From positions 1 through 32,740 of the forward strand of contig CAMLWN010000010.1 of NCBI GenBank assembly GCA_946490195.1: a DNA stretch of 32,740 bases. The letters are read 5' to 3'. A program made the translations under genes and the position numbers. Every line of letters begins with the position of its first letter. The first letter of the stretch is position 1. The DNA is from an uncultured Mycoplasmatota bacterium (lineage in GTDB: Bacteria; Bacillota_I; Bacilli_A; RF39; UBA660). Shown piece after piece: positions 6,821 to 32,387 of this stretch. A model generated the notes under the pieces. That model did no database searches and was not told where the DNA came from. It was given only the letters and a program-made list of their open reading frames with translations.

Positions 6821-7711
6821 TCACCATTTCTTTATTTCTTGTTCTAAGATAAGGTCAATATGATATACCCTTTCTACCTCATCATGTATTAATTGTATCA
6901 AACTTCGAATATCTTTTCCAGTTGCATTTCCTAAATTGATAATAAAATTCGCATGTTTGACACTTATCATCGCATCTCCTATTCTTTTTCCTTTTAATCC
7001 TAAATCATCAATAAGTTTTCCACTAGGCATATCTGGAGCCGGATTTCTAAATACACTACCAGCACTTGGATATTCTAAAGGTTGTGAGGCTAACCGTCTT
7101 TGAAGTCGATCTTTTATAATAGTCAAAGACTTTTCTTTCTCGCCTTCTGGAAAAACAAAGGTAGCTTCTAAAATGATATACCCTGGATTTTCTTTAAAAA
7201 AACTCGTTCGATAAGCATGAGAAATTTCTTCTTTGAAAGAAGTTTTTATATTACCATCTGGAGTTATATAACGTACACTTTTTAAATATTCAAAAGTAGA
7301 TACTTTATACGCTTCAGCATTACCATATATAGAGCCTCCAACCGTTCCAGGAATACCGCTTGCCCATTCTAAACCGCTTAATCCATGTTCAAGAATATCA
7401 CGAGCCAAAAAGTTAATCATAACTCCCGCACCAACAGTTACTTCATGTTCTTTATATTCAATTTTTTTTAATTGATCAAGCTTTAAAATAACTCCATCAT
7501 ACATCGTGTCTGATAAGATTACATTAGACCCATTTCCTAAAATAAAAAAATCAAGTTCTTTTTCTTTAGCGTATTTAAAAAAATGAAGAACATCTTGTTC
7601 ATTTCGTGGATGAAGTAAATATTTTGTATGAGTTTTAATGCGGTAAGTATTTAATGTTTCTAAAGATACATTCTCTTCTAAAATACCAAACTCCATTAAT
7701 TCTTCTTTCAT
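6821..7711 (-). CDS. murB: UDP-N-acetylenolpyruvoylglucosamine reductase MurB
   Basis: A 296-residue cytoplasmic FAD enzyme that reduces UDP-GlcNAc-enolpyruvate to UDP-MurNAc with NADPH. FAD-binding sequences include LGNGSNVI (59-66) and the segment around SGIPGTVGGSIYGNA (118-132). Ser219 in SAGSVFRNP is the expected proton donor. The C-terminus ISVKHANFIINLGNAT matches the family, and length and insertions fit type II MurB. The ATG overlaps the murG stop as ATGA and has AAAGGAG nine bases upstream, so it is translationally coupled to murG. Its last codons, TGG TGA, show that TGA is a stop here. Confidence 0.97.
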   Translation of the reverse strand: MKEELMEFGILEENVSLETLNTYRIKTHTKYLLHPRNEQDVLHFFKYAKEKELDFFILGNGSNVILSDTMYDGVILKLDQLKKIEYKEHEVTVGAGVMINFLARDILEHGLSGLEWASGIPGTVGGSIYGNAEAYKVSTFEYLKSVRYITPDGNIKTSFKEEISHAYRTSFFKENPGYIILEATFVFPEGEKEKSLTIIKDRLQRRLASQPLEYPSAGSVFRNPAPDMPSGKLIDDLGLKGKRIGDAMISVKHANFIINLGNATGKDIRSLIQLIHDEVERVYHIDLILEQEIKKW

Positions 7712-8784
7712 GATACAAGCTCCTTTATCTCATTATAAATAACTTCTGCACTATTTTTAGTATCTAGACTATGCATTGCATGAATCATTCGAAGTCTTTT
7801 AGCTGTATCACTAAGCATCTGATCAACAAGTGTAAGGATTTTTTCAGTAGTAATTTCTTTTTCTTCAAGCAAACAAATACAATTTTTGTCTGCTAACTCT
7901 TTAGCGTTAAAATACTGATGATTATTGGCTACATTAGGACTAGGAATAATAATAGAAGGAATTTCTAAAGCTAAGATTTCACTTAAACTTCCTGCACCTG
8001 CTCGAGAAATAACCAAATCACTTGTTTTAAGTAAGCCAGGTAAATCTTCCATATATGGAAACACCTTAACATTAGGAGCATAGCTTTCTTTAGTAAAATC
8101 CTCATAATGCGCTTTCCCGGTAATATAACAAATCTCATAATTTTTCTTACCAATACTTTGCAAATATTCTTTCATTTTTTGATTTAGTGAACCGCTACCT
8201 AAGGACCCAGCAACAATCGTAACTAATTTTTTTCCTTTAGTAAATCCTAAACTCTCTTTATCTTTTTTAGGAATATTTAATGCCCATGCTCCACAAGGAT
8301 GTCCTGTATAAACAATTTTTCCTTTGGTCTTTAAATGTTTTTTACTTTCTAAAAAAGTAAGTCCAATAACATCCGCATATTTAGCAATCATTTTATTTGC
8401 CTTTCCAGGAATACTATTTTGTTCATGAATAAATGTTTTAATATGCATTTGATGCGCTGCTTTGATAACAGGATAAGTAACATACCCACCTACCCCAATG
8501 ACAACATCTGGACGAAATTCCTTAAAAATTTCTTTACATTTTTTTATAGCTTTAGAAATTAATACAAGATCTTTAAAATCATTAAGAATATTTTTTGTAA
8601 AGCCATAAATTTCTATACTTTCATAACGAATATTCTTCTTTGGAATCACATCCTTTTCCATTCGATTATGTGTTCCGATATATAAAACCTCTAAATCTTT
8701 TTCTTTTTTCTTAAATTCTTCAATAATGGCTAAAGCTGGATTAATATGACCCATTGTTCCACCAGCAGTTACAACTATTCTCAT
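7708..8784 (-). CDS. murG: Lipid II synthase MurG
   Basis: A 358-residue GT-B glycosyltransferase at the inner membrane face. It transfers GlcNAc from UDP-GlcNAc to lipid I, giving lipid II. The N-terminal glycine loop TAGGTMGHINPALA is typical, as are the conserved segments GVGGYVTYPV and HEQNSIPGKANK. The donor-binding domain shows SRAGAGSLSEILALEIPSIIIP and NHQYFNAKEL. Length matches the family. The ATG at 8784 has GGAG seven bases upstream. It is the first gene of a murG-murB-divIB unit with its own promoter, diverging from ftsW, rather than lying downstream of mraY-murD-ftsW on one strand as in the usual arrangement. Confidence 0.97.
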   Translation of the reverse strand: MRIVVTAGGTMGHINPALAIIEEFKKKEKDLEVLYIGTHNRMEKDVIPKKNIRYESIEIYGFTKNILNDFKDLVLISKAIKKCKEIFKEFRPDVVIGVGGYVTYPVIKAAHQMHIKTFIHEQNSIPGKANKMIAKYADVIGLTFLESKKHLKTKGKIVYTGHPCGAWALNIPKKDKESLGFTKGKKLVTIVAGSLGSGSLNQKMKEYLQSIGKKNYEICYITGKAHYEDFTKESYAPNVKVFPYMEDLPGLLKTSDLVISRAGAGSLSEILALEIPSIIIPSPNVANNHQYFNAKELADKNCICLLEEKEITTEKILTLVDQMLSDTAKRLRMIHAMHSLDTKNSAEVIYNEIKELVS

Positions 8785-8807
8785 CCCATCACTCCATCTG
8801 TTCTTCT

Positions 8808-8813
8808 ATTATA
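8808..8813 (-). promoter_or_regulatory. -10 element for murG-murB-divIB
   Basis: A perfect TATAAT on the minus strand, 24 bases before the murG start. The -35 hexamer is poor. The spacer 8785-8907 must also hold the ftsW promoter; TATACT near 8887-8892 is a candidate for that gene. Confidence 0.45.
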
Positions 8814-8907
8814 CTATATTTTTAAACAAAATTTATAGAACAAATAAAAGAAGTGTAAAGAGGCCTAATTTTTTACTCAAATTCATATACTTTATTGGTG
8901 AAACAAA

Positions 8908-9996
8908 ATGAAAAAAGGAAAAATAGATTATCTTCTTTTTGTCACGGTAATAATCATCAGTATATTCGGAATCATTATGATTTATTCAGCAAGTTCAATC
9001 TGGGCAGAATATAAATTTCAAGACCCTGTAAAATTTGTAAAAAGCCAATCTCTCTTTTTTTTCATTAGTGTTTTCCTTTGTCTTTTTATCAGCAAAATTC
9101 CTTGTTCATTTTGGAAAAAAAACGCGAATAAAATCTTAGGAATTTGTTTTATTCTTCTTGTTCTAGTTCTAATACCAGGAATAGGAACAGTCCGTAACGG
9201 TTCTAGAAGTTGGTTTGGTATCGGTGGTTTAGGTATTCAGCCTTCAGAATTCGCGAAAATCGGATTAATTATTTTTGTTTCAAAATATTTAAGCAACAAT
9301 CAAAAAGATTTAAAAAGTATCAAAAAAGGTGTATTGCCTATTTTAGGAATCATTTTTCTCTTTTTTGGATTAATTATGCTAGAGCCAGACTTTGGTACCG
9401 CAATGGTTATTGTTCTAACTTTACTTAGTTTGATTTTTATTAGTGGAGTTAAAATTTCCTTTTTTGTCAAAATTGGTCTTTTAGGCCTTTTAGGAATTGT
9501 TGGACTAATCATTGTTGCTCCATACAGAATGGCGAGAATCGTTTCATTTCTAAATCCTTGGAGCGATCCATTAGGAAGTGGATTTCAAATCATTCAAAGT
9601 TTGTATGCCATTGGTCCAGGAGGATTATTAGGTCAAGGATTTTTAAATTCTCATCAAAAACACTTTTACTTACCAGAACCTCAAACCGATTTTATCTTTT
9701 CCATTATCAGTGAAGAATTTGGTTTTCTAGGAGTTTTAATTGTTGTTTCTTTCTTTTTCTTTATCTTCTATCGTTCAATCAAAATCTCTTTAAATTCCAA
9801 CGACCTATTTGCAAAATTCTTAAGTTTTGGCTTAGCTATTGGAATACTCATTCAAGCCACCCTAAATCTAGCGGTCGTTATCGGATTAATCCCAGTAACC
9901 GGTGTTACTCTTCCATTCTTCAGTTACGGTGGTTCTAGTTTACTTACAAGTATGATTAGTATTGGCATGATTTTAAATATTTCTAGATATCGCTAA
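8908..9996 (+). CDS. ftsW: Peptidoglycan glycosyltransferase FtsW (SEDS family)
   Basis: A 362-residue SEDS protein with about ten membrane segments that polymerises lipid II at the septum together with its PBP partner. Family signatures include RSWFGIGGLGIQPSEFAKI, NPWSDPLGSGFQIIQSLYAIGPGGLLGQG, LPEPQTDFIFSIISEEFGFLG and, at the end, TLPFFSYGGSSLLTSM. GGTGA precedes the ATG at good spacing. It occupies its usual slot between mraY and murG but is on the opposite strand to all other cell-wall genes here, and murD is missing. It could be a RodA-type paralogue; the wording of the motifs and the location favour FtsW. A decayed copy of its last 25-30 codons lies at 11446-11544. Confidence 0.9.
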   Translation: MKKGKIDYLLFVTVIIISIFGIIMIYSASSIWAEYKFQDPVKFVKSQSLFFFISVFLCLFISKIPCSFWKKNANKILGICFILLVLVLIPGIGTVRNGSRSWFGIGGLGIQPSEFAKIGLIIFVSKYLSNNQKDLKSIKKGVLPILGIIFLFFGLIMLEPDFGTAMVIVLTLLSLIFISGVKISFFVKIGLLGLLGIVGLIIVAPYRMARIVSFLNPWSDPLGSGFQIIQSLYAIGPGGLLGQGFLNSHQKHFYLPEPQTDFIFSIISEEFGFLGVLIVVSFFFFIFYRSIKISLNSNDLFAKFLSFGLAIGILIQATLNLAVVIGLIPVTGVTLPFFSYGGSSLLTSMISIGMILNISRYR

Positions 9997-10092
9997 CGAG
10001 AGCAAAATGTCCAACTTAATTTGAAAATTACCTATTTTGTAACATATTTTTATTAAATAAAGTCTTTACTGTCGATAAGAATTGACACAATT

Positions 10093-10121
10093 TTGACATT
10101 TTTTGCTAAATATGCTACAGT
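10093..10121 (+). promoter_or_regulatory. Promoter for the transglutaminase-like gene
   Basis: Perfect TTGACA (10093-10098), a 17-base spacer ending in TGC, and TACAGT (10116-10121), an extended -10. A GAGGG ribosome site follows, ten bases before the ATG. A second TTGACA lies at 10082-10087. The 12-mer CATTTTTTGCTA inside it recurs at the GH13 promoter. Confidence 0.7.
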
Positions 10122-10147
10122 AATATTCACAAAGAGGGAAAATTAAT

Positions 10148-11227
10148 ATGGATAGATATGATAGTGTAATAAAAAAAGGTATTTTAAATATACAAGTTAT
10201 TAAACCTTTTCCACCAAGACGTAATAAAGCACAAAATTCTATTCCACCTCTTTCTGGAAGAAAGCGTTTGCGGTTTAATATATCCTTTGATAATTTTGCA
10301 AAATATATAAGTGAAATAAGAAGTAGCATTAATACTTCTATGCCAGTGGAATGCATTATTTACGATGAGGATTTAATATCTTGTGATGATGACGTATTAT
10401 TAAGAGTAGCTTTTTTAAAAAGTATCAAAGATTTAAATTTTAGGGAGATTGATTTTAAATTATCCGATTCTACTTTTCCGTTGTATAACACTATAATGGA
10501 TAGAATAAATTGGAAACACGGTAATGTATCATTTTTAGAAATGACTGTAGATAGAAACCCTACTGAAATTAAAGATTTGAGACTTGAAAAAGCAAAAGGA
10601 AAAATATTATTACCAGAAGAAAAACTTCTATGGCAAAGTGATTATGTTTTAAATAAACTAGGAGATAGAATAGAGCCAAAAATTTTGGAAGACACAGATA
10701 AATTAAAATATGTAATCAGACATTATGTTGATGGTTTAGAAAGACACTATAACTTTGATAAACTAACTGATTTTGACAAAGTATGGTTAACATATCATTT
10801 TATTAAAGATAGAGATAAATTAAATATAGAATTTGCATATGAACAAACGCTTTATGGAGCAGATGGTTTACAACATTTGAGACGTTCTGAAGAAAATTGG
10901 GAGTCTAAACCATATGGAACATATATAAGAAGAAAAGGAGTTTGCGAAGGACAAGCAAGATTATTTAGAGTTTTATTAAACAATTGGGATATGCAAGTAG
11001 ATGCAATCACTTTAAATGGTATGTCTCCTATGGGTCCTCACTGTTGGTTAGGCACAGTTATTAATAATAGACTTTATTATTGCTGTACTACTCAATATAA
11101 GTTGTTTGATAAAGTAAATTTTACTCCAAATGATACTGAATATTATCCACAAATATATCAAACATCTTTATTAGATAATGAAGATAAAAAAAGTATAGAG
11201 AGACACATTAAATCATTAAGAAGATAA
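10148..11227 (+). CDS. Cytoplasmic transglutaminase-like protein
   Basis: A 359-residue protein with no signal peptide or membrane segment. Residues about 205-320 resemble the transglutaminase-like/papain-like core: Cys266 in RKGVCEGQARLFRVLL, on a helix as in family members, and His298 in GPHCWLGTVI. The usual third residue, Asp in a D-T motif, is replaced by Cys (YYCCTTQ, residues 311-317), so activity is uncertain. The first 200 residues match nothing I recognise; they contain many strands and a charged stretch near 140-165. Promoter, ribosome site and a terminator make it a single-gene unit. It lies between intact ftsW and a decayed ftsW 3' end and is more AT-rich in codon use than the murein genes, which suggests acquisition. 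Transglutaminase fold likely, function unknown. Confidence 0.72.
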   Translation: MDRYDSVIKKGILNIQVIKPFPPRRNKAQNSIPPLSGRKRLRFNISFDNFAKYISEIRSSINTSMPVECIIYDEDLISCDDDVLLRVAFLKSIKDLNFREIDFKLSDSTFPLYNTIMDRINWKHGNVSFLEMTVDRNPTEIKDLRLEKAKGKILLPEEKLLWQSDYVLNKLGDRIEPKILEDTDKLKYVIRHYVDGLERHYNFDKLTDFDKVWLTYHFIKDRDKLNIEFAYEQTLYGADGLQHLRRSEENWESKPYGTYIRRKGVCEGQARLFRVLLNNWDMQVDAITLNGMSPMGPHCWLGTVINNRLYYCCTTQYKLFDKVNFTPNDTEYYPQIYQTSLLDNEDKKSIERHIKSLRR

Positions 11228-11314
11228 TGCAATAATTTATAATAAATATTCATATAGATTTGTAATTCAAATAAAAAACATAAGTAGAATTATGAGTTGT
11301 AGTAATAGATTAAT

Positions 11315-11346
11315 AAGGGATAATAATAACTGTATCCCTTTTAATT
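11315..11346 (+). terminator. Terminator of the transglutaminase-like gene
   Basis: AAGGGAT (11315-11321) pairs with ATCCCTT (11334-11340) across a 12-base loop, followed by TTAATTTT. It lies about 90 bases after the stop codon. Confidence 0.6.
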
Positions 11347-11445
11347 TTGTTACTATTTTTTATTTCTTTTATAAACTTCTCTGATAAAAGCGTTCCTTGT
11401 AATGCAAAAGACATAGACAATAAGATTTTCACTTGTAAAACTTAA

Positions 11446-11544
11446 GATCTCATTCTTTCCTTCTTTAGTTATGGTGGTTCAAGTTTACTTACAAATATGA
11501 TTAGAATTGGCATGATTTTAGGGATTTCAAGAAGTTGCCATTGA
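11446..11544 (+). pseudogene. ftsW: Decayed ftsW 3'-end fragment
   Basis: From 11461 one frame reads FFSYGGSSLLTNMIRIGMI and then LGISRSCH-stop, clearly the C-terminus of an FtsW/RodA protein. Over 25 codons it matches 64 of 75 bases of the intact gene at 9916-9990. A stop codon at 11443-11445 lies directly upstream in the same frame, and the preceding codons (LILS against VTLP) are only weakly similar. Nothing else of the protein is present and no start or ribosome site fits, so this is a relic. About 15 percent divergence points to an old duplication or to a donor from a related strain. Confidence 0.85.
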
Positions 11545-11671
11545 AAAAAAATGCCGTGAACGTCAAAAATCTTCAACGAAGATTATTGTGAAAGAGATGT
11601 TTTAGTTATCAGCTTGCAATAATTTTTATTAGATAAAAATAGTTTAAATTTATAATGTGGTGTAAAATTTC

Positions 11672-11700
11672 TTGTGATTTTCTCCATTTTTTGCTACATT
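11672..11700 (+). promoter_or_regulatory. Promoter for the GH13 gene
   Basis: TTGTGA (11672-11677), a 17-base spacer ending in TGC, and TACATT (11695-11700). The layout is the same as the promoter at 10093-10121. Transcription would begin almost at the AGGAG site, giving a leader of only about 12 bases, so the perfect TATAAT at 11651-11656 is an alternative despite its poor -35. Confidence 0.5.
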
Positions 11701-11719
11701 TAGATTAGGAGTGATAGAA

Positions 11720-12631
11720 GTGAAAGTTTTACATTTACAAAACTGGAATGCAGATGCGATTAAAGAAAATATTCCAGTAGTAAAAGAACAAGGATTTGAT
11801 GCATGTTTAATCGGACCAGTTCAGCCATTAAAGGAAGATGGCTATAAAGAATGGTGGATGTCCTATCAAATCACTGATTTTAAAATTGGAAATATTTATA
11901 TTTCCAAAGAAGATTTAATTTCAATTTGTGAGTTAGCTCGTCAATATCAATTAGATATTCATGTGGATACGGTTTTAAACCATACCGGAGCTTCCTTAGA
12001 AGACCCATTAAAACCACATCCAAATGTAAATCCAATACTACTTTCTAATCCTGAATATTGGAAAGAAAAAATAAATGTCTCAAATTGGGATGACAGAAAA
12101 GATGTGACATCCCATTGCATGGGTCTTCCTGGATTAAATGTATATCATCCAGACATTCAAAAAATAATTAGCAAATTTTTAAACGAATTAATTGATACAG
12201 GAGTAATGGGTTTTCGCTTTGATGCAGCAAAATCTATAGGACTTCCTAGCGAAGGATATGACTTTTGGCCAAATATCATTTATTGTTTAAAAAAATGGGG
12301 CCTATTCCTCTACGGTGAAATAATATGCGAAAATAATCAACAAGTTTTAGAAGAATATGCCAAATATATCAATGTTTTAGGTAGTTATGTAGCAAATAAT
12401 CCAAATCGTAGTGTTTTATATGCAGAAAGTCACGATTCTTATCTCAGTGACACCAATTTAGGATATACAAAATATAAAACAAGTGAAGAAATCTTAAATG
12501 AATATTGTGCAATGGTATGGCATCACCTAAACACATTATTTTATGTTCGACCATTTGACGATACATGGAAAAGAAAAGAAATTAAAGATGCCCATGAAAA
12601 TGTACTAAAAAGAACAAAAAAAATTGCATAA
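11720..12631 (+). CDS. Minimal GH13 (alpha-amylase fold) protein
   Basis: A 303-residue cytoplasmic protein starting at the GTG at 11720, eight bases after AGGAG; an in-frame GTG at 11711 overlaps that site and is unlikely. All four conserved GH13 regions are present: HVDTVLNHTG (region I, Asp83 and His88), GFRFDAAKS (nucleophile Asp168), YGEII (acid/base Glu200) and AESHDS (His238-Asp239). It should fold as a TIM barrel acting on alpha-glucosidic bonds. It lacks a signal peptide, and at about 300 residues lacks the C-terminal beta domain and has a shortened end; typical enzymes exceed 400 residues. It may be a reduced hydrolase or transferase acting on intracellular alpha-glucan, or a barrel with another role. 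It is convergent with mraY. Confidence 0.85.
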   Translation: MKVLHLQNWNADAIKENIPVVKEQGFDACLIGPVQPLKEDGYKEWWMSYQITDFKIGNIYISKEDLISICELARQYQLDIHVDTVLNHTGASLEDPLKPHPNVNPILLSNPEYWKEKINVSNWDDRKDVTSHCMGLPGLNVYHPDIQKIISKFLNELIDTGVMGFRFDAAKSIGLPSEGYDFWPNIIYCLKKWGLFLYGEIICENNQQVLEEYAKYINVLGSYVANNPNRSVLYAESHDSYLSDTNLGYTKYKTSEEILNEYCAMVWHHLNTLFYVRPFDDTWKRKEIKDAHENVLKRTKKIA

Positions 12632-12644
12632 TCGCAATTTTTTT
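12617..12644. terminator. Bidirectional terminator between GH13 gene and mraY
   Basis: AAAAAAATTGC (12617-12627) and GCAATTTTTTT (12634-12644) form an 11-bp stem with a six-base loop. It overlaps the GH13 stop codon and, read on the minus strand, follows the mraY stop at 12658 with a T run. Confidence 0.8.
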
Positions 12645-12657
12645 AATTTATAAATAT

Positions 12658-13650
12658 TTATATCCATACACCATAAGTAATTGCTGCCATAGCGAGTAAT
12701 AACCCTACAACATAAAACATTTTAACAATATCTGTTTCTTGCCATCCTAACTGTTCAAAATGGTGGTGTAACGGAGCCATTTTAAAGATTTTTCGATGAA
12801 ATTTTCGAATCGCAATAATTTGAATCATACTTGATAAAGTTTCAATGACAAATACTCCTCCAATAACTGCTAAAGATAGTTCATGACGAGTAACAATACA
12901 AATTGCTGCCATCGTAGCCCCTAAAGAAAGACTTCCTAAATCTCCCATAAAAACACGTGCTGGATGTGTATTAAAAAGTAAAAAGCCAAGCAAAGCTCCT
13001 ACTAAAACAAAACAGAATATAGCAACTTCTTGATACCCTTCCATCCAAGTAGTATTCCACGTGATAATACCTAAAGCAACAAAAGCAATCATACTAAGGC
13101 CGCCACACAAACCATCGAGCCCATCTGTAATATTTACTGCATTACTACTTCCAACAAGTAAAAATAAGATAAATAAACCAAAAGTCCATCCCATTGGAAT
13201 AGCAATATTCAAAGAAGTAATATCAATAACAGGTTCTCCACCATTTTTCATAAAAATATAAAAGAAAATCAAAGCAATCAACATTTGTAATAAAAATTTT
13301 GTGGATATTCTGAGTCCTTGGTTATTATGATATCTTACCTTTAACCAATCATCAACAAATCCTAAGGCTGCATAAGATAAGAAAACCAAGAGAACAATAA
13401 TCAAATTATGATTAATTTCTATACTTCCTCTTAAATACAATAAAAACAACGCAATGAGAACAGGAAAGATAAAAATGATTCCTCCCATAGTTGGCGTTCC
13501 CTCTTTTTTCTGATGTCGTTCTCCAATCGTTTCACTTACGTGTTGTCGAAAATTAATTTTTTTTAAAAAAGGGATAAATATGAGTCCACAAATGATGGCA
13601 AAAATAAACCCAAGCATCATCGCTAGTGCCGTTTTTGCTAAAATTAACAT
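12658..13650 (-). CDS. mraY: Phospho-MurNAc-pentapeptide transferase MraY
   Basis: A 330-residue membrane enzyme with about ten membrane segments that makes lipid I from UDP-MurNAc-pentapeptide and undecaprenyl phosphate. Diagnostic sequences are GTPTMGG, DDWLK (active-site Asp pair), NAVNITDGLDGL, MGDLGSLSLG and the HHH motif in PLHHHFE. The start is the ATG at 13650, six to seven bases after AGGTGGG; a GTG three codons earlier overlaps that site. In most Firmicutes murD and ftsW follow in the same direction. Here mraY ends at a bidirectional terminator facing a GH13 gene. A perfect -10 (TATAAT) lies about 20 bases upstream, so it may also have its own promoter 83 bases after the PBP gene. 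Confidence 0.97.
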   Translation of the reverse strand: MLILAKTALAMMLGFIFAIICGLIFIPFLKKINFRQHVSETIGERHQKKEGTPTMGGIIFIFPVLIALFLLYLRGSIEINHNLIIVLLVFLSYAALGFVDDWLKVRYHNNQGLRISTKFLLQMLIALIFFYIFMKNGGEPVIDITSLNIAIPMGWTFGLFILFLLVGSSNAVNITDGLDGLCGGLSMIAFVALGIITWNTTWMEGYQEVAIFCFVLVGALLGFLLFNTHPARVFMGDLGSLSLGATMAAICIVTRHELSLAVIGGVFVIETLSSMIQIIAIRKFHRKIFKMAPLHHHFEQLGWQETDIVKMFYVVGLLLAMAAITYGVWI

Positions 13651-13732
13651 AAATCCCACCTACCTAATCTTATTATACAATATTTTTGAAAAAAACCTCT
13701 CTTTTTTCTTATTTTTGACAATATTTAGACAT

Positions 13733-15637
13733 TTACCCTAAAAGAAGCTTAATTGTCCCATCTTCTTTAACATAACTATTTGCTTCAGGAGTTTGATACA
13801 AGACCGTTTCCCCTGTCCCAGAATATTCTAAAGAATATCCTCTCAAGATTTCTTTAGCTTCATCTAAAGATTTACCAGTTACATCTGGTATTTGATGATA
13901 TTTCACATCCATCCAATTATATTCTTTAGCCATACCTTCAGTACTACTTTTTATATCTAAAGCAGGAATAGCCGCTTCTAAAATAGATTTAGCAATAGGT
14001 GCAGCTACCGTACCACCATATTGGACAACACCTACAGGATGGTCAACTGCCACATAAACAACGATTTCTGGGTCATCAGCAGGCATAAAGCCAATAAAGG
14101 ATAAAATGTAATTCCCATCCATATAATGGCCATCTTGAACTTTTTGAGCGGTTCCTGTCTTTCCTCCAACTCGGTAATTTTCAATATAAGCATTTCTTCC
14201 AGAACCGTTTGCTACAACACTTTCTAAAGCAAATCGTACTAATGAAGAAGTTTCTTCACTAATGACATTAGCTCGCAAATTAGGTTCCTTAGAATAAACC
14301 ACTGTATTTGTCTCTGGTTCAAGCATTTCTTTTACTAAAAACGGTTGATAAAGATTGCCTCCATTAATAGCGGCGGACACAGCAGTAACTTGTTGAATAG
14401 GTGTTACACTTATACCTTGACCAAAACTAGTTGTTGCGAGTTCTACAGGCCCCATTTTATCTATCGAAAATAAGATTCCATTAGATTCGCCATTCAAATC
14501 AATCCCTGTCTTCTCTCCAAATCCAAATTTTGTAATATAGCTCATAAGCGTTTGTGTTCCTAATTTTTGCCCTAGAGTAACAAAACCAGGGTTGCAACTA
14601 TTCTCAACCACATTTAAATAAGTTTGTGCTCCATGTCCCCCACTTTTCCAACAATGAATGGTAGCCCCCTCCACATGAATACTTCCTGAATCATAATAAG
14701 TATCTTCAAACAAATTCACAGTTTTTTCTTCAATACTACTTGTAAGAGTCATAATTTTAAAAGTCGACCCAGGCTCATAAGTCATCCATATTGGTAAATT
14801 TCGATTTATCGTTTCCGTATCATAATCCTGATAATTATTCGGATCAAAATTTGGACGACTTGCCATAGCTAAAATCTCTCCAGTATCTGGATCCATCGCC
14901 ATAATAAGAGCATGTTCTGGTGTATATTTACTCATTACATTATCAAGTTCTCTTTCCGCAGCAAGTTGAATATCTAAATCAATAGTAAGTTGCAAATTCA
15001 TCCCATCTTGTGGTTCTTCATAGACTTCAGAGATTTCCAAACGATTTCCTTTACCATCAGAAAAATAATTAATTGCACCATCTTTACCAGTCAAATATTC
15101 ATCATAAGTAAGTTCTAGTCCAGAAAGCCCTTGATTATCAATTCCAACATACCCCAAAACATGAGACAAAACATTCCCATACGGATAATATCTTTTACTT
15201 TCTTTGACTAAATAAACCCCATCAAATCCTAGTTCATCAATTTGACTCGCAATGTCATAAGAAAGTTGTCTCCCCTCCGGATGTATTCGTTCAATACTTG
15301 TTTTTTTGCTAACATGAGCAAGCATATCTTCATAATCTGAATGTAAAATTTCACTCAAAGCTTTAGCCACTTCTTCCTTGTTTTCAATTTGATTTGGAAT
15401 AACTACCAATGAAGTCGTTGTTAAATTTGTTGCCAAAACTTTTCCATTTCGGTCATAAATTTCTCCGCGGTCTGCTCCAATAGGCAATTTTCTACTCCAC
15501 AAAGATTCAGCTAAAACACTAAGTTTATCATACTCAATAACTTGAATATAAAAAACTCGAATAACAATAATAATAGAAATACATAAAATAAGCAAAAAGA
15601 AAAATCGAATTCTAGTATGGATGTCAGAAAAAAACAT
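13733..15637 (-). CDS. ftsI: Penicillin-binding protein 2B/SpoVD/FtsI type transpeptidase
   Basis: A 634-residue class B PBP: membrane anchor about residues 12-34, dimerisation domain, transpeptidase domain and one C-terminal PASTA domain (about 580-634). Active-site motifs are Ser291-TFK294, Ser347-Cys-Asn349 and Lys493-TG. The SCN form of the second motif and the PASTA domain recall SpoVD/PBP2B. It cross-links septal peptidoglycan as partner of FtsW. The ATG at 15637 follows AGGTGA, but both lie inside a strong hairpin (see 15629-15666). It would usually follow mraZ-rsmH-ftsL; here those genes are absent and a kinase-like gene of an ABC operon precedes it. Whether it serves vegetative division or sporulation cannot be told. 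Confidence 0.93.
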   Translation of the reverse strand: MFFSDIHTRIRFFFLLILCISIIIVIRVFYIQVIEYDKLSVLAESLWSRKLPIGADRGEIYDRNGKVLATNLTTTSLVVIPNQIENKEEVAKALSEILHSDYEDMLAHVSKKTSIERIHPEGRQLSYDIASQIDELGFDGVYLVKESKRYYPYGNVLSHVLGYVGIDNQGLSGLELTYDEYLTGKDGAINYFSDGKGNRLEISEVYEEPQDGMNLQLTIDLDIQLAAERELDNVMSKYTPEHALIMAMDPDTGEILAMASRPNFDPNNYQDYDTETINRNLPIWMTYEPGSTFKIMTLTSSIEEKTVNLFEDTYYDSGSIHVEGATIHCWKSGGHGAQTYLNVVENSCNPGFVTLGQKLGTQTLMSYITKFGFGEKTGIDLNGESNGILFSIDKMGPVELATTSFGQGISVTPIQQVTAVSAAINGGNLYQPFLVKEMLEPETNTVVYSKEPNLRANVISEETSSLVRFALESVVANGSGRNAYIENYRVGGKTGTAQKVQDGHYMDGNYILSFIGFMPADDPEIVVYVAVDHPVGVVQYGGTVAAPIAKSILEAAIPALDIKSSTEGMAKEYNWMDVKYHQIPDVTGKSLDEAKEILRGYSLEYSGTGETVLYQTPEANSYVKEDGTIKLLLG

Positions 15638-29388: not shown

Positions 29389-29967
29389 TTACATTTGCTT
29401 TATACATTTAATTTTCTTCTTATTAATAAAACGGTAAACAATATAAAGAATATATAAAATAGAAAACAAAAGATAATATGGATAGTGAATTTCTAAGAAA
29501 CTATCACTATTGTTAGCATAAGGATTTAAAAGAAGAAGAATTTCAATAAAAGCAAAAATACACGTTATTCCTATAGAAATATTTTCTTTATTTTCTAAAT
29601 TCAAAACAAAATCATTTCCTAAAATAAGCCAAAAAGAAAATTGTAAAGGAAAGAATATACCTTGGAAAAGAATTCCCCACGAGACAAATGTTTGGGTATA
29701 AATGAGATTCTCATTATATTTGAATCCTCCAACACGAATACTCTGTTGTAAAAGAAGACTAAAAAGAACAATAAGAAGAAAAGTACTAATACAAACTATC
29801 CATTTCTTTTTAGAAAATTTATAAATCAAGAAAATGAGAATTCCAAACACACTTAACAAAATAAGAGAAAAAATCGTACTAACATAAGGAGAATTATGAA
29901 GTATACCTATAAACGAAAAGAAAAGACAAATTGTTGCTAAAGAAAGTTTTAAAAATGTTTTTTTCAT
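29389..29967 (-). CDS. Multi-pass membrane protein, partner of HTH-TM regulator (copy 2)
   Basis: A 192-residue protein with about five or six membrane segments and no catalytic motif I recognise. It starts MKK with a hydrophobic segment and ends with YRFINKKKIKC. Its ATG overlaps the TGA of the upstream HTH gene by four bases (ATGA), so the two are translationally coupled. It is paralogous to the 187-residue protein at 30937-31500: both share the N-terminal pattern, a central FFxLxFxxWLIxGxD segment and the terminal YRxxNK. A ligand-sensing, transport or signal-modulating role with the HTH-TM protein is inferred from conserved pairing. No clear terminator precedes the next gene. Confidence 0.75.
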   Translation of the reverse strand: MKKTFLKLSLATICLFFSFIGILHNSPYVSTIFSLILLSVFGILIFLIYKFSKKKWIVCISTFLLIVLFSLLLQQSIRVGGFKYNENLIYTQTFVSWGILFQGIFFPLQFSFWLILGNDFVLNLENKENISIGITCIFAFIEILLLLNPYANNSDSFLEIHYPYYLLFSILYILYIVYRFINKKKIKCIKQM

Positions 29968-30860
29968 TCTAACCCACCTACCTCTATTATTAAAGACAAA
30001 ACATCTGCATAATAATGATATTTACTGCTAATTAAATATATCGCATTCTCGCCAATTTCTTTATTGGAAAGAATTGGACTAAAAACATTATCTATATAAG
30101 AATTTAATACATTACTTGATCGACGAATACTTGCTTCGCCCAAATTTTCTATTTGAACGTCCGGTTGATATTTTTGTAACGTTTTGCTTATCATCGGATA
30201 ATAATCAAATGAATTTATAGAGACAAACTCTTCTAGACAAGCAAGATGATAAATTTCTTTAAAAGATAAAGCTTTTTTATAGTATAATTCCTTATTTTTT
30301 TGAACGTCTTTTGTAATACGACGCACATACTCAGTTATTTCTTCATACTCTTCATTTATATACTTTCCCTGATTATGTAAAACTTTTAACGCTTTGCTTT
30401 CTACTTCATCAAATATATCTTCATATTCATAAGCTTTTCCTGGAGATGCTTCTTGTATGAATATCCCACCCGAAGATACTCGCGTAGTATATTTCTGATA
30501 AAATCTCCTTTCTACATTTAAAAACATAAATAAAGTAAACAAAAGCAAAAAGCTCATCGCCGTCAAAAGCAATTGATTTACAATCTGTTTTGCTTTTTGC
30601 TTCCTGCTCTCCGTTGCATAAGTAATCGTGGTTTTAATTGCACTTTCTACTTCCTCTTCTCCATTTAACAAGGAAGAGATAGAAACCCCTAAAATATTGG
30701 CCAAATCCTCTAAAAGTGAAATATCTGGACAACATATTCCCCTTTCCCACTTTGAAACAGCTCGATCTGTAACATGCAATTGATCAGCTAATTCTTTTTG
30801 AGTCAAACCTTTTTCTTTGCGCATTTTAGCAATTAAAGCTCCCATCTTCTCAGTATCCAT
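29964..30860 (-). CDS. Membrane-tethered XRE-type HTH regulator (copy 2)
   Basis: A 298-residue protein. Residues 1-65 are a Cro/CI (XRE) helix-turn-helix: GALIAKMRKEKGLTQKELAD, then VTDRAVSKWERGICCPDISLL. A linker (about 66-92) leads to one membrane segment (about 95-115, LLTAMSFLLLFTLFMFLNV). The remaining 180 residues are predicted extracellular, largely helical, with many Tyr and Glu. The layout is that of a one-component membrane regulator that would bind DNA while attached to the membrane. The HTH and linker are almost identical to those of the protein at 31497-32387 (31 identical residues from GVSISSLLN to TESRKQ), but the external domains have diverged. GAGGTAG precedes the ATG. Target genes are unknown. 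Confidence 0.85.
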   Translation of the reverse strand: MDTEKMGALIAKMRKEKGLTQKELADQLHVTDRAVSKWERGICCPDISLLEDLANILGVSISSLLNGEEEVESAIKTTITYATESRKQKAKQIVNQLLLTAMSFLLLFTLFMFLNVERRFYQKYTTRVSSGGIFIQEASPGKAYEYEDIFDEVESKALKVLHNQGKYINEEYEEITEYVRRITKDVQKNKELYYKKALSFKEIYHLACLEEFVSINSFDYYPMISKTLQKYQPDVQIENLGEASIRRSSNVLNSYIDNVFSPILSNKEIGENAIYLISSKYHYYADVLSLIIEVGGLE

Positions 30861-30925
30861 AAACTACCTCTCTTCTAAAATTATTAAATCAAAAAGATAA
30901 AGAAAAGGCAACAAACCTGTGGTTG

Positions 30926-30957
30926 AAAAAAAGAATTCAAGATATACCTGAATTCTT
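30926..30957 (-). terminator. Terminator between the two HTH modules
   Basis: On the minus strand AAGAATTCA and TGAATTCTT form a 9-bp stem around GGTATATCT, followed by T. The stop codon at 30937-30939 lies in the second arm, so the hairpin covers the end of the coding sequence. Confidence 0.85.
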
Positions 30958-31500
30958 ATTCACTAATCTATAAAGAAAATATCCAAAAAAAGAAACGGAA
31001 AAATAAAAGACAAACTGACTAAAATATTCCATAGATTGATAAGAAGTTAAATAAGGATGAAACAAAATCGCAAATTGAATCGCCAAAAGAATGCCAAAAA
31101 TAAGGAAAGAAAGAAAATCACTTTTTCTTGTATTTTGGATATAATCATCACCATGAATTAACCAAAGCAAAAATTCTAAAGAGAAAAACAAACATAAAGA
31201 AAAAGCTTCAAAAGAAAAATTTTTTTGAATATATAAAAAGGTGGTATTTAACATAATTTCTTGATTTTGAACACATGCATTTAGAAGGAAAATTAGAGCT
31301 AAACATTCAACAAGTAAACACCCCGCCACTACTTTTTTTACTTTAGGATATTTATAAATGAAAAACAAAGGAATACCAAACGAGCAAATCAAAAAAAAGA
31401 TAAGCACAGTCACAAAACCATCTGAATTTCGTACAAAAAGATAAAAAGAAAGAAAAAGACAAAGGGATATAAGTAGTAATTTAATGATATTTTTTTTCAC
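30937..31500 (-). CDS. Multi-pass membrane protein, partner of HTH-TM regulator (copy 1)
   Basis: A 187-residue protein with about five or six membrane segments: MKKNIIKLLLISLCLFLSFYLF at the start, a central FFSLEFLLWLIHGDDYIQ and an end of YRLVNKNSGIS. It is paralogous to the protein at 29389-29967 and unrecognised otherwise. The gene overlaps its HTH-TM partner by four bases, the same arrangement as in copy 2. Its last codons form part of a terminator, so module 1 ends here and module 2 has a separate transcript. Function unknown; a membrane sensor or modulator acting with the regulator is a reasonable inference from the repeated pairing. Confidence 0.75.
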   Translation of the reverse strand: MKKNIIKLLLISLCLFLSFYLFVRNSDGFVTVLIFFLICSFGIPLFFIYKYPKVKKVVAGCLLVECLALIFLLNACVQNQEIMLNTTFLYIQKNFSFEAFSLCLFFSLEFLLWLIHGDDYIQNTRKSDFLSFLIFGILLAIQFAILFHPYLTSYQSMEYFSQFVFYFSVSFFGYFLYRLVNKNSGIS

Positions 31501-32387
31501 TTAATTTCACCCACTTTCATTATCGAATCTACAACCTGTACATAATAACCGTATTTATCCTGTAATAAACCAATAACTTTTTCGCCAATTTTTTCATCAC
31601 TTATATCAAGACGATAAATACTGTTAATATACTCTTCAATTTCATTACGATATACAAAAGTAAAACTCAAATCATAAGACGCTTCAAAATTTGAATCATA
31701 TTGCTTTAAAATTTTTTCAACTTTAGAAATCAGATTTTCATATTCTACAGAGCAAAAATAAACAAATTCATCATAAAGAATTTCAGTGAGTTCTTTATAA
31801 GAATAATCTTGCTGATAATAAAGTTTCTTAGCTCCAATCATTTCTTGTTGAATCTTTTTTAGATAATTTTGAATTATCTCATAATCCTTATCTTTAAAAA
31901 TTCCTTGATTTTGTAATACCGTAGTTATTTTCATCTCTAGTTCTTCAAAAACATCCCTAGTATAAGTTTCTTCATTTCCAACAAATATTTGAAAAGAAGA
32001 AATACTACGCGAAGGATATTTTTTTAAAAAACGCATTTCTACTTTAGCAAAATCAGAAATTGCTAGTAATAAGAAAAAAACAATAACAATAATAAAAAGG
32101 AAATTCACCCTTTCTTTTATTCTCTGTTTTCGACTCTCCGTTGCATAAGTAATCGTTGTTTTAATTGCGCTTTCCACTTCCTCTTCTCCATTTAGCAAAG
32201 AAGAAATAGAAACTCCTAAAATTTTAGCCAAATCATCTAAAAGGGAAATATCAGGGCATCCAAGTCCTCTTTCCCATTTTGAAACAGCTCGGTCTGTTAT
32301 ATGTAATTGATTGGCTAATTCTTTCTGAGTTAAACCTTTTTCTTTACGAAGTTTAGCAATTAAAGCCCCAATTTTTTCTGTATCCAT
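31497..32387 (-). CDS. Membrane-tethered XRE-type HTH regulator (copy 1)
   Basis: A 296-residue protein with the same plan as copy 2: XRE helix-turn-helix (1-65, ITDRAVSKWERGLGCPDISLL), linker, one membrane segment near residues 96-115 (FLFIIVIVFFLLLAISDFA) and about 180 extracellular residues rich in Tyr, Glu and Lys. The recognition helix differs from copy 2 mainly at ITD/VTD and GLG/ICC, so both probably bind the same or closely related sites; the external parts differ and may see different signals. GAGGTAG lies six bases before the ATG, within a leader similar to that of copy 2. Autoregulation and cross-regulation are plausible, not shown. Confidence 0.85.
   Translation of the reverse strand: MDTEKIGALIAKLRKEKGLTQKELANQLHITDRAVSKWERGLGCPDISLLDDLAKILGVSISSLLNGEEEVESAIKTTITYATESRKQRIKERVNFLFIIVIVFFLLLAISDFAKVEMRFLKKYPSRSISSFQIFVGNEETYTRDVFEELEMKITTVLQNQGIFKDKDYEIIQNYLKKIQQEMIGAKKLYYQQDYSYKELTEILYDEFVYFCSVEYENLISKVEKILKQYDSNFEASYDLSFTFVYRNEIEEYINSIYRLDISDEKIGEKVIGLLQDKYGYYVQVVDSIMKVGEIK

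Follow-up and report, generated by a model that had tools for sequence, protein, structure and literature searches.

A repeated 3' end at a spoVE-type gene as a probable scar of site-specific recombination in the dcw cluster of an uncultured bacterium

Why does the 3' end of a SEDS gene occur twice in the same DNA, once in place and once as a relic beyond a transglutaminase-like gene? The question is raised by a stretch of 32,740 nucleotides from an uncultured Mycoplasmatota bacterium, and this whole stretch is called the window here. An earlier note on it had described three collinear blocks duplicated around the transglutaminase-like gene. The first block, a repeat of 25 codons, was exactly as described: 64 of 75 bases were identical between 9916-9990 and 11461-11535, compared with 41 in the best of 200 shuffles. 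The homology was in fact wider, extending over about the last 32 codons of the gene (9901-9996 versus 11446-11544). The two shorter blocks were also present letter for letter, and they occurred jointly and in order in only 1 of 500 shuffles, but comparison with relatives gave them other origins. The copy at 11622-11637 belongs to the final ~50 bp of an AAA_14/DUF4143 ATPase gene, which a sister genome (G015) has in full, and the copy at 11685-11696 lies in the native GH13 promoter, which is also found in relatives free of any insert. Judged from these alignments, one block is duplicated, not three. We consider it probable, at roughly 0.7, that site-specific recombination in the spoVE-type gene of the dcw cluster left the repeat as a scar: an element would have been lost, the gene completed again, and its old C-terminal segment (C segment) left behind. 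All of the genomes used in this analysis are draft assemblies of uncultured bacteria. The features of the locus are collected in Table 1.

Table 1. Features of the window at and around the repeated gene end
Feature	Position	Strand	Remarks
SEDS gene, spoVE-type, complete (read as ftsW)	8908..9996	+	spoVE model 440.9 bits (cut-off 448.8); ftsW model 410.7 (cut-off 337.5)
Present C-terminal segment of the spoVE-type gene	9901..9996	+	Sister-like, then foreign sequence after 9941
Spacer with the accessory-gene promoter	9997..10147	+	From ~10060 common to the L073 homologue (by eye)
Accessory gene, 359 aa, transglutaminase-like	10148..11227	+	Conserved Cys266, His298
Putative decayed right arm of an LSR attachment site, type B	11384..11445	+	In register with the G020 arm, p = 0.006 over 15 arms
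Relic, probable displaced old C-terminal segment	11446..11544	+	Damaged: G1D, V2L, T3I, P5S, S20R versus consensus
Remnant of an AAA_14/DUF4143 ATPase insert: 5' hairpin block plus last ~50 bp of the gene	11539..11655	+	By comparison with G015
Native GH13 promoter region	11656..11710	+	Conserved in empty sites
GH13 gene, alpha-amylase domain	11711..12631	+	Native downstream neighbour in the closest relatives
spoVD	13733..15637	-	721.8 bits (cut-off 688); spoVE partner

The gene had been read as ftsW, and the profile scores spoke against that name. For all orthologues tested, the best-scoring model was spoVE, with scores above the cut-off in two other genomes (G064 and G070) and just below it in the window. 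The PBP encoded next to the spoVE-type gene passed the spoVD cut-off, and Spo0A_C was present in 91 of the 98 family genomes, including that of the window. Two further SEDS paralogues (33-39%) were detected in most other genomes; the window's own genome, 80% complete, yielded a single SEDS gene. A study of Clostridioides difficile reports that its dcw-encoded synthases are sporulation specific (PMC10693644). Since the spoVE model scores best, spoVD is adjacent, and Spo0A is present in the family, the name ftsW is better replaced, and on these profile matches the window gene is best called spoVE. As to the order of the cluster, the spoVE-type gene and the GH13 gene run opposite to murG, mraY, and spoVD in the window (7708-13659), and mraY and the spoVE-type gene have the same direction in other genera (G070, G157, and L073). 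The spoVE-type gene therefore seems to be inverted within the cluster in the window genus. Elsewhere in the window (29389-32387), a pair of genes for an HTH regulator and a membrane protein is present in two tandem copies.

An insertion at the gene end, as the earlier note had proposed, should be visible as variation among relatives, including strains with GH13 immediately downstream of the gene. Both were found. The gene was present at high similarity in 34 of 37 genomes of the same genus, and the stretch between it and mraY contained nothing, an ATPase gene, ORF6N genes, or other genes; the variants at this locus comprise empty sites and ATPase, ORF6N, GNAT, toxin-antitoxin, or transglutaminase-like inserts. 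Four relatives had the gene and then GH13 directly, and in G012, G008, and G010 this arrangement came with no insert and with the GH13 promoter retained. A second copy of the 3' end came after the insert in the window and in G011, G020, and G023; in G025, a contig lacking the gene carried two of them. ORF6N genes were considered as a marker of the spoVE site only and rejected, 8 of the 13 strong copies in the genus being elsewhere. In the window's own genome, tandem ORF6N genes with 82% repeats are located far from spoVE (L163:919-2733, contig C24).

The sister G015 was the most informative for the window. In it, an AAA_14/DUF4143 ATPase gene with a hairpin repeat around it comes next after the spoVE-type gene, directly ahead of GH13, and its identity with the window is 97.6% to the left of the insert and 93.3% to the right. 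After the relic, the window has the hairpin block, the last ~50 bp of the ATPase gene, and then the native GH13 promoter. Within the gene itself, differences between the two genomes numbered 23 in the 994 sites before 9902, zero in 9902-9941, and 11 in the 49 sites of 9942-9990. This jump is abrupt, and therefore the present tail is from elsewhere, with the switch located within the last 32 codons. The proposal of a recombinational insertion that imported a diverged gene end and left direct repeats is thus supported by the lack of such an insert in G015, by the tail switch, and by the empty relatives; what it did not foresee was a wider cause, in which the relic would be a C segment displaced by the serine recombinase elements that split this gene in many genera. 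The hairpin repeat (TTGAAAAAAATGCCGTAAACGGCAAAAATTTTCAATGG) occurs up to twice before AAA_14/DUF4143 genes, being upstream of them in L032, L033, and L046 and at 11539-11598 in the window; it may mark a separate type of mobile gene.

A family-wide search showed that relics of the 3' end recur in about 17 further genera. In G133, G169, G044, G086, G161, G058, and G025, the relic was located 50 to 100 bp after the gene for a large serine recombinase (LSR). These LSRs grouped in a single clade with a support of 100/99, separate from the remaining tested LSRs of the genus, and a search based on the LSR only added G220, G377, and G180, each with a relic. When the clade LSRs (at least 45% identity) with downstream DNA were counted, all 10 were followed by a relic within 50 to 100 bp; this count includes neither G198, whose contig stops at the crossover, nor G064, which is only a fragment. 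No relic was found after any of the three near outgroups (G309, G345, and G185; 40-42%). The dN/dS values of the clade LSRs were about 0.06 to 0.19, and by this measure they are under purifying selection.

The family elements carry their own site-specific recombinase beside the attachment site. Their left and right ends form inverted repeats around GG, an example of type A being AAAAGGGCA-AAGGGTA-TGCCCTTTT. Across genera, the right arms were alike up to the GG (46 of 50 columns invariant) and host-like after it (34 of 67). An nhmmer model built from four LSR ends recovered this arm in G011, L073, G121, and G020, where it closes single-gene inserts, and missed the right arm of the window; with its match to the G020 arm (Table 1), the window's own arm is moderately supported. 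The whole arrangement of N part, element, and C segment was present on single contigs in G161 (~8.6 kb), G220 (14.7 kb), and G180 (7.8 kb). VirD4/TraG was found in G161 and G025; the cargo of G180 and G220 was mostly other, so a simple ICE reading was abandoned and the neutral word "element" is used. A tyrosine integrase in G025 was rejected as the driver because it is the LSR, not the tyrosine enzyme, that recurs beside relics. That integrase belongs to another element of the conjugative type, ~500 bp from the second relic (L068:13638-15431).

In these other genera of the family, the gene is split at ...PVTG|GVTLPF..., and the C segment is found just past the recombinase gene and one arm of the attachment site. 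The upstream gene stops early in the genomes that have LSR elements or element arms, and according to the junctions read, it ends at PVTG plus element-coded residues in at least 12 genera. The protein ends are ...GLIPVTG* in G161, G220, G058, G198, and G086; ...PVTGYALLLYS* in G128, G115, and G096; ...PVTGYA... in G180, G080, and G044; ...PVTGYTLWLYT... in G377; ...PVTGVA... in G169; and ...PVTGVIL... in G059. The 32 residues absent from the split protein are those of the relic. In G044, besides the split at codon 332, there is a second one near codon 240 (L204:3389-8150, contig C14), made by an element of 3.7 kb with a different LSR (a 492-aa recombinase). At element-type loci, the C segment was open and GVTLPFLSYGGSS was kept in 17 loci (one with V2I); at scar-type loci, where the gene is not split, the same stretch was changed in 9 of 12, including the window (Fisher 0.0002), and the scar-type loci of other genera had been found at a stricter threshold that favours intact copies, a bias that opposes the difference. 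With LSR-found loci only, the contrast gave a Fisher value of 0.001. Dead split genes would have decaying C segments; the intact C segments, together with selection on the LSR, thus support the idea that excision rebuilds a needed protein. By analogy with skin in sigK, excision would restore spoVE during sporulation.

As in a sporulation-gene intervening element, the family elements divide a sporulation gene at a single site, and the resulting N and C parts are both intact. The window insert has neither a split gene nor a recombinase: no recombinase gene was found at this locus, and the spoVE-type gene there is complete. It was filed as a scar. In the path that we propose, an element of this family, with its dedicated LSR clade, would use the GG in the codons VT-GG-V, some 32 codons from the stop, as its insertion site. 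The insertion would leave a 330-codon N part ending in element-coded sequence, and the C segment GVTLPF(F/L)SYGGSS... would come to stand beyond the recombinase gene and the attachment arm, from where excision would rejoin it to the N part. In the window lineage, the lost element would have left only its decayed right arm and, at 11446-11544, the old C segment. We infer that this lineage once passed through the split state and that its gene was completed anew, with a different C segment, by homologous exchange inside that segment; the accessory gene would have been brought along in the exchange and now stands between two C segments. The start of the window relic is that of the LSR C segments, and LSR elements in other genera cross over at what is, in the window, the GG of codon 332 (9901-9902). 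Against this reading stand the lack of a recombinase at the window locus, the moderate support for the window's own arm, and the switch after 9941, which is ~40 bp to the right of that crossover point and more in keeping with homologous exchange than with the action of an LSR.

A homologous single crossover within the C segment, the view of the earlier note, would account for the same switch. Here, a circular or other donor DNA with a diverged gene 3' end and the accessory gene would have entered with no recombinase at the window locus, and the two C copies of G157 and G043, near-identical on the left and differing at the 3' end, agree with such an event. Nevertheless, the relic has its left edge at the LSR crossover point, the non-ftsW DNA to the left of the relic is LSR-arm-like in several loci, and such a crossover would not explain why inserts in many genera are concentrated at a single site. 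We regard this alternative as possible, though rather doubtful.

The accessory gene bears on another alternative. In one scan of 85,000 species genomes, its closest homologue (79%) was also located just 3' of a spoVE-type gene, in L073, a lineage of another genus, where the order is the gene, a RelB/ParE pair, a 3'-end relic, and the transglutaminase-like gene. The remoter homologues (36-45%) showed no spoVE link in the short stretches read. Cys266 and His298 were invariant among four homologues, and a transglutaminase-related NCBIfam model matched weakly at the Cys-His region. The protein had no Pfam match, a PDB sequence search with it returned nothing, and its AlphaFold2 model (pLDDT 55.6) was set aside. 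The link to spoVE in two genera could mean that a gene, right arm, and C segment travel together as small circles inserted by the LSR of a resident element, as SCC without ccr may be. Several unrelated genes share the layout of C segment, gene, arm, and C segment, and tandem ORF6N units were found in G023, G025, and G169. We nevertheless think such trans-mobilised cassettes unlikely, given that the junction is a hybrid arm|C site and not a true attP, that no free circle was seen, and that the position of the switch in the window does not fit. A local duplication of the gene end or an error of metagenome assembly, suggested by frequent contig breaks near such sites, is very improbable in view of the same layout with different cargo and shared element arms in independent genomes and of the collinear flanks of the sister.

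The preferred reading, a scar of site-specific recombination, is part of a broader proposal: LSR elements would repeatedly split spoVE across a large family of gut bacteria with small genomes and Spo0A, and by leaving the mother-cell genome when spores form they would rebuild the spore cortex synthase, dead elements being rescued by recombination into single-gene scars like that of the window. We see about even odds for it. The hosts are uncultured gut bacteria whose sporulation has hardly been studied, and if the proposal is true, the scars show what may follow once such an element can no longer leave. The natural splitting of a dcw-cluster SEDS gene in a dozen genera would also be genetic evidence that this gene is dispensable for vegetative division there, as experiments in C. 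difficile have shown (PMC10693644).

Several known systems resemble these loci in part. SCC elements (CcrAB/CcrC at rlmH) and pseudo-SCC likewise have an LSR, a fixed site in a conserved gene, tandem arrays, and recombinase-less remnants (PMC6450365), whereas the family site is inside the gene, which the LSR elements split; the LSR, at 108.8 bits against a CcrB cut-off of 900, scored far too low for a ccr product. There may also be a resemblance to CIME and the tandem accretion of ICE and IME, in which decayed elements keep attachment sites, with further insertion afterwards (PMC5704250). A CIME retains attL and attR after losing its integrase; the window insert has a right-arm match (p = 0.006) and no canonical left arm seen at 9997, its left boundary being the gene end, and it lacks conjugation genes. 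The closest parallel is with the known intervening elements, namely, skin in sigK, vfbin in spoVFB, vrin in spoVR, SPbeta in spsM, gin in gerE, and yin in yabG (PMC5595907, PMC4191935, PMC10747680). Our literature search gave no match for spoVE as a target of such elements and none that joined ftsW or spoVE with them. Like the family elements, they have a serine recombinase and split a sporulation gene at a precise point with the N and C parts intact, and gin also shares a non-phage cargo (PMC5595907, PMC4191935, PMC10747680). The family elements differ in their target, spoVE, in the use of one LSR clade in a dozen genera, in the presence of two elements in one gene (G044), and in scars with a re-completed gene; their excision is predicted to be timed to sporulation. 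If our proposal is true, spoVE joins sigK, spoVFB, spoVR, spsM, gerE, and yabG as a developmental target of mobile DNA.
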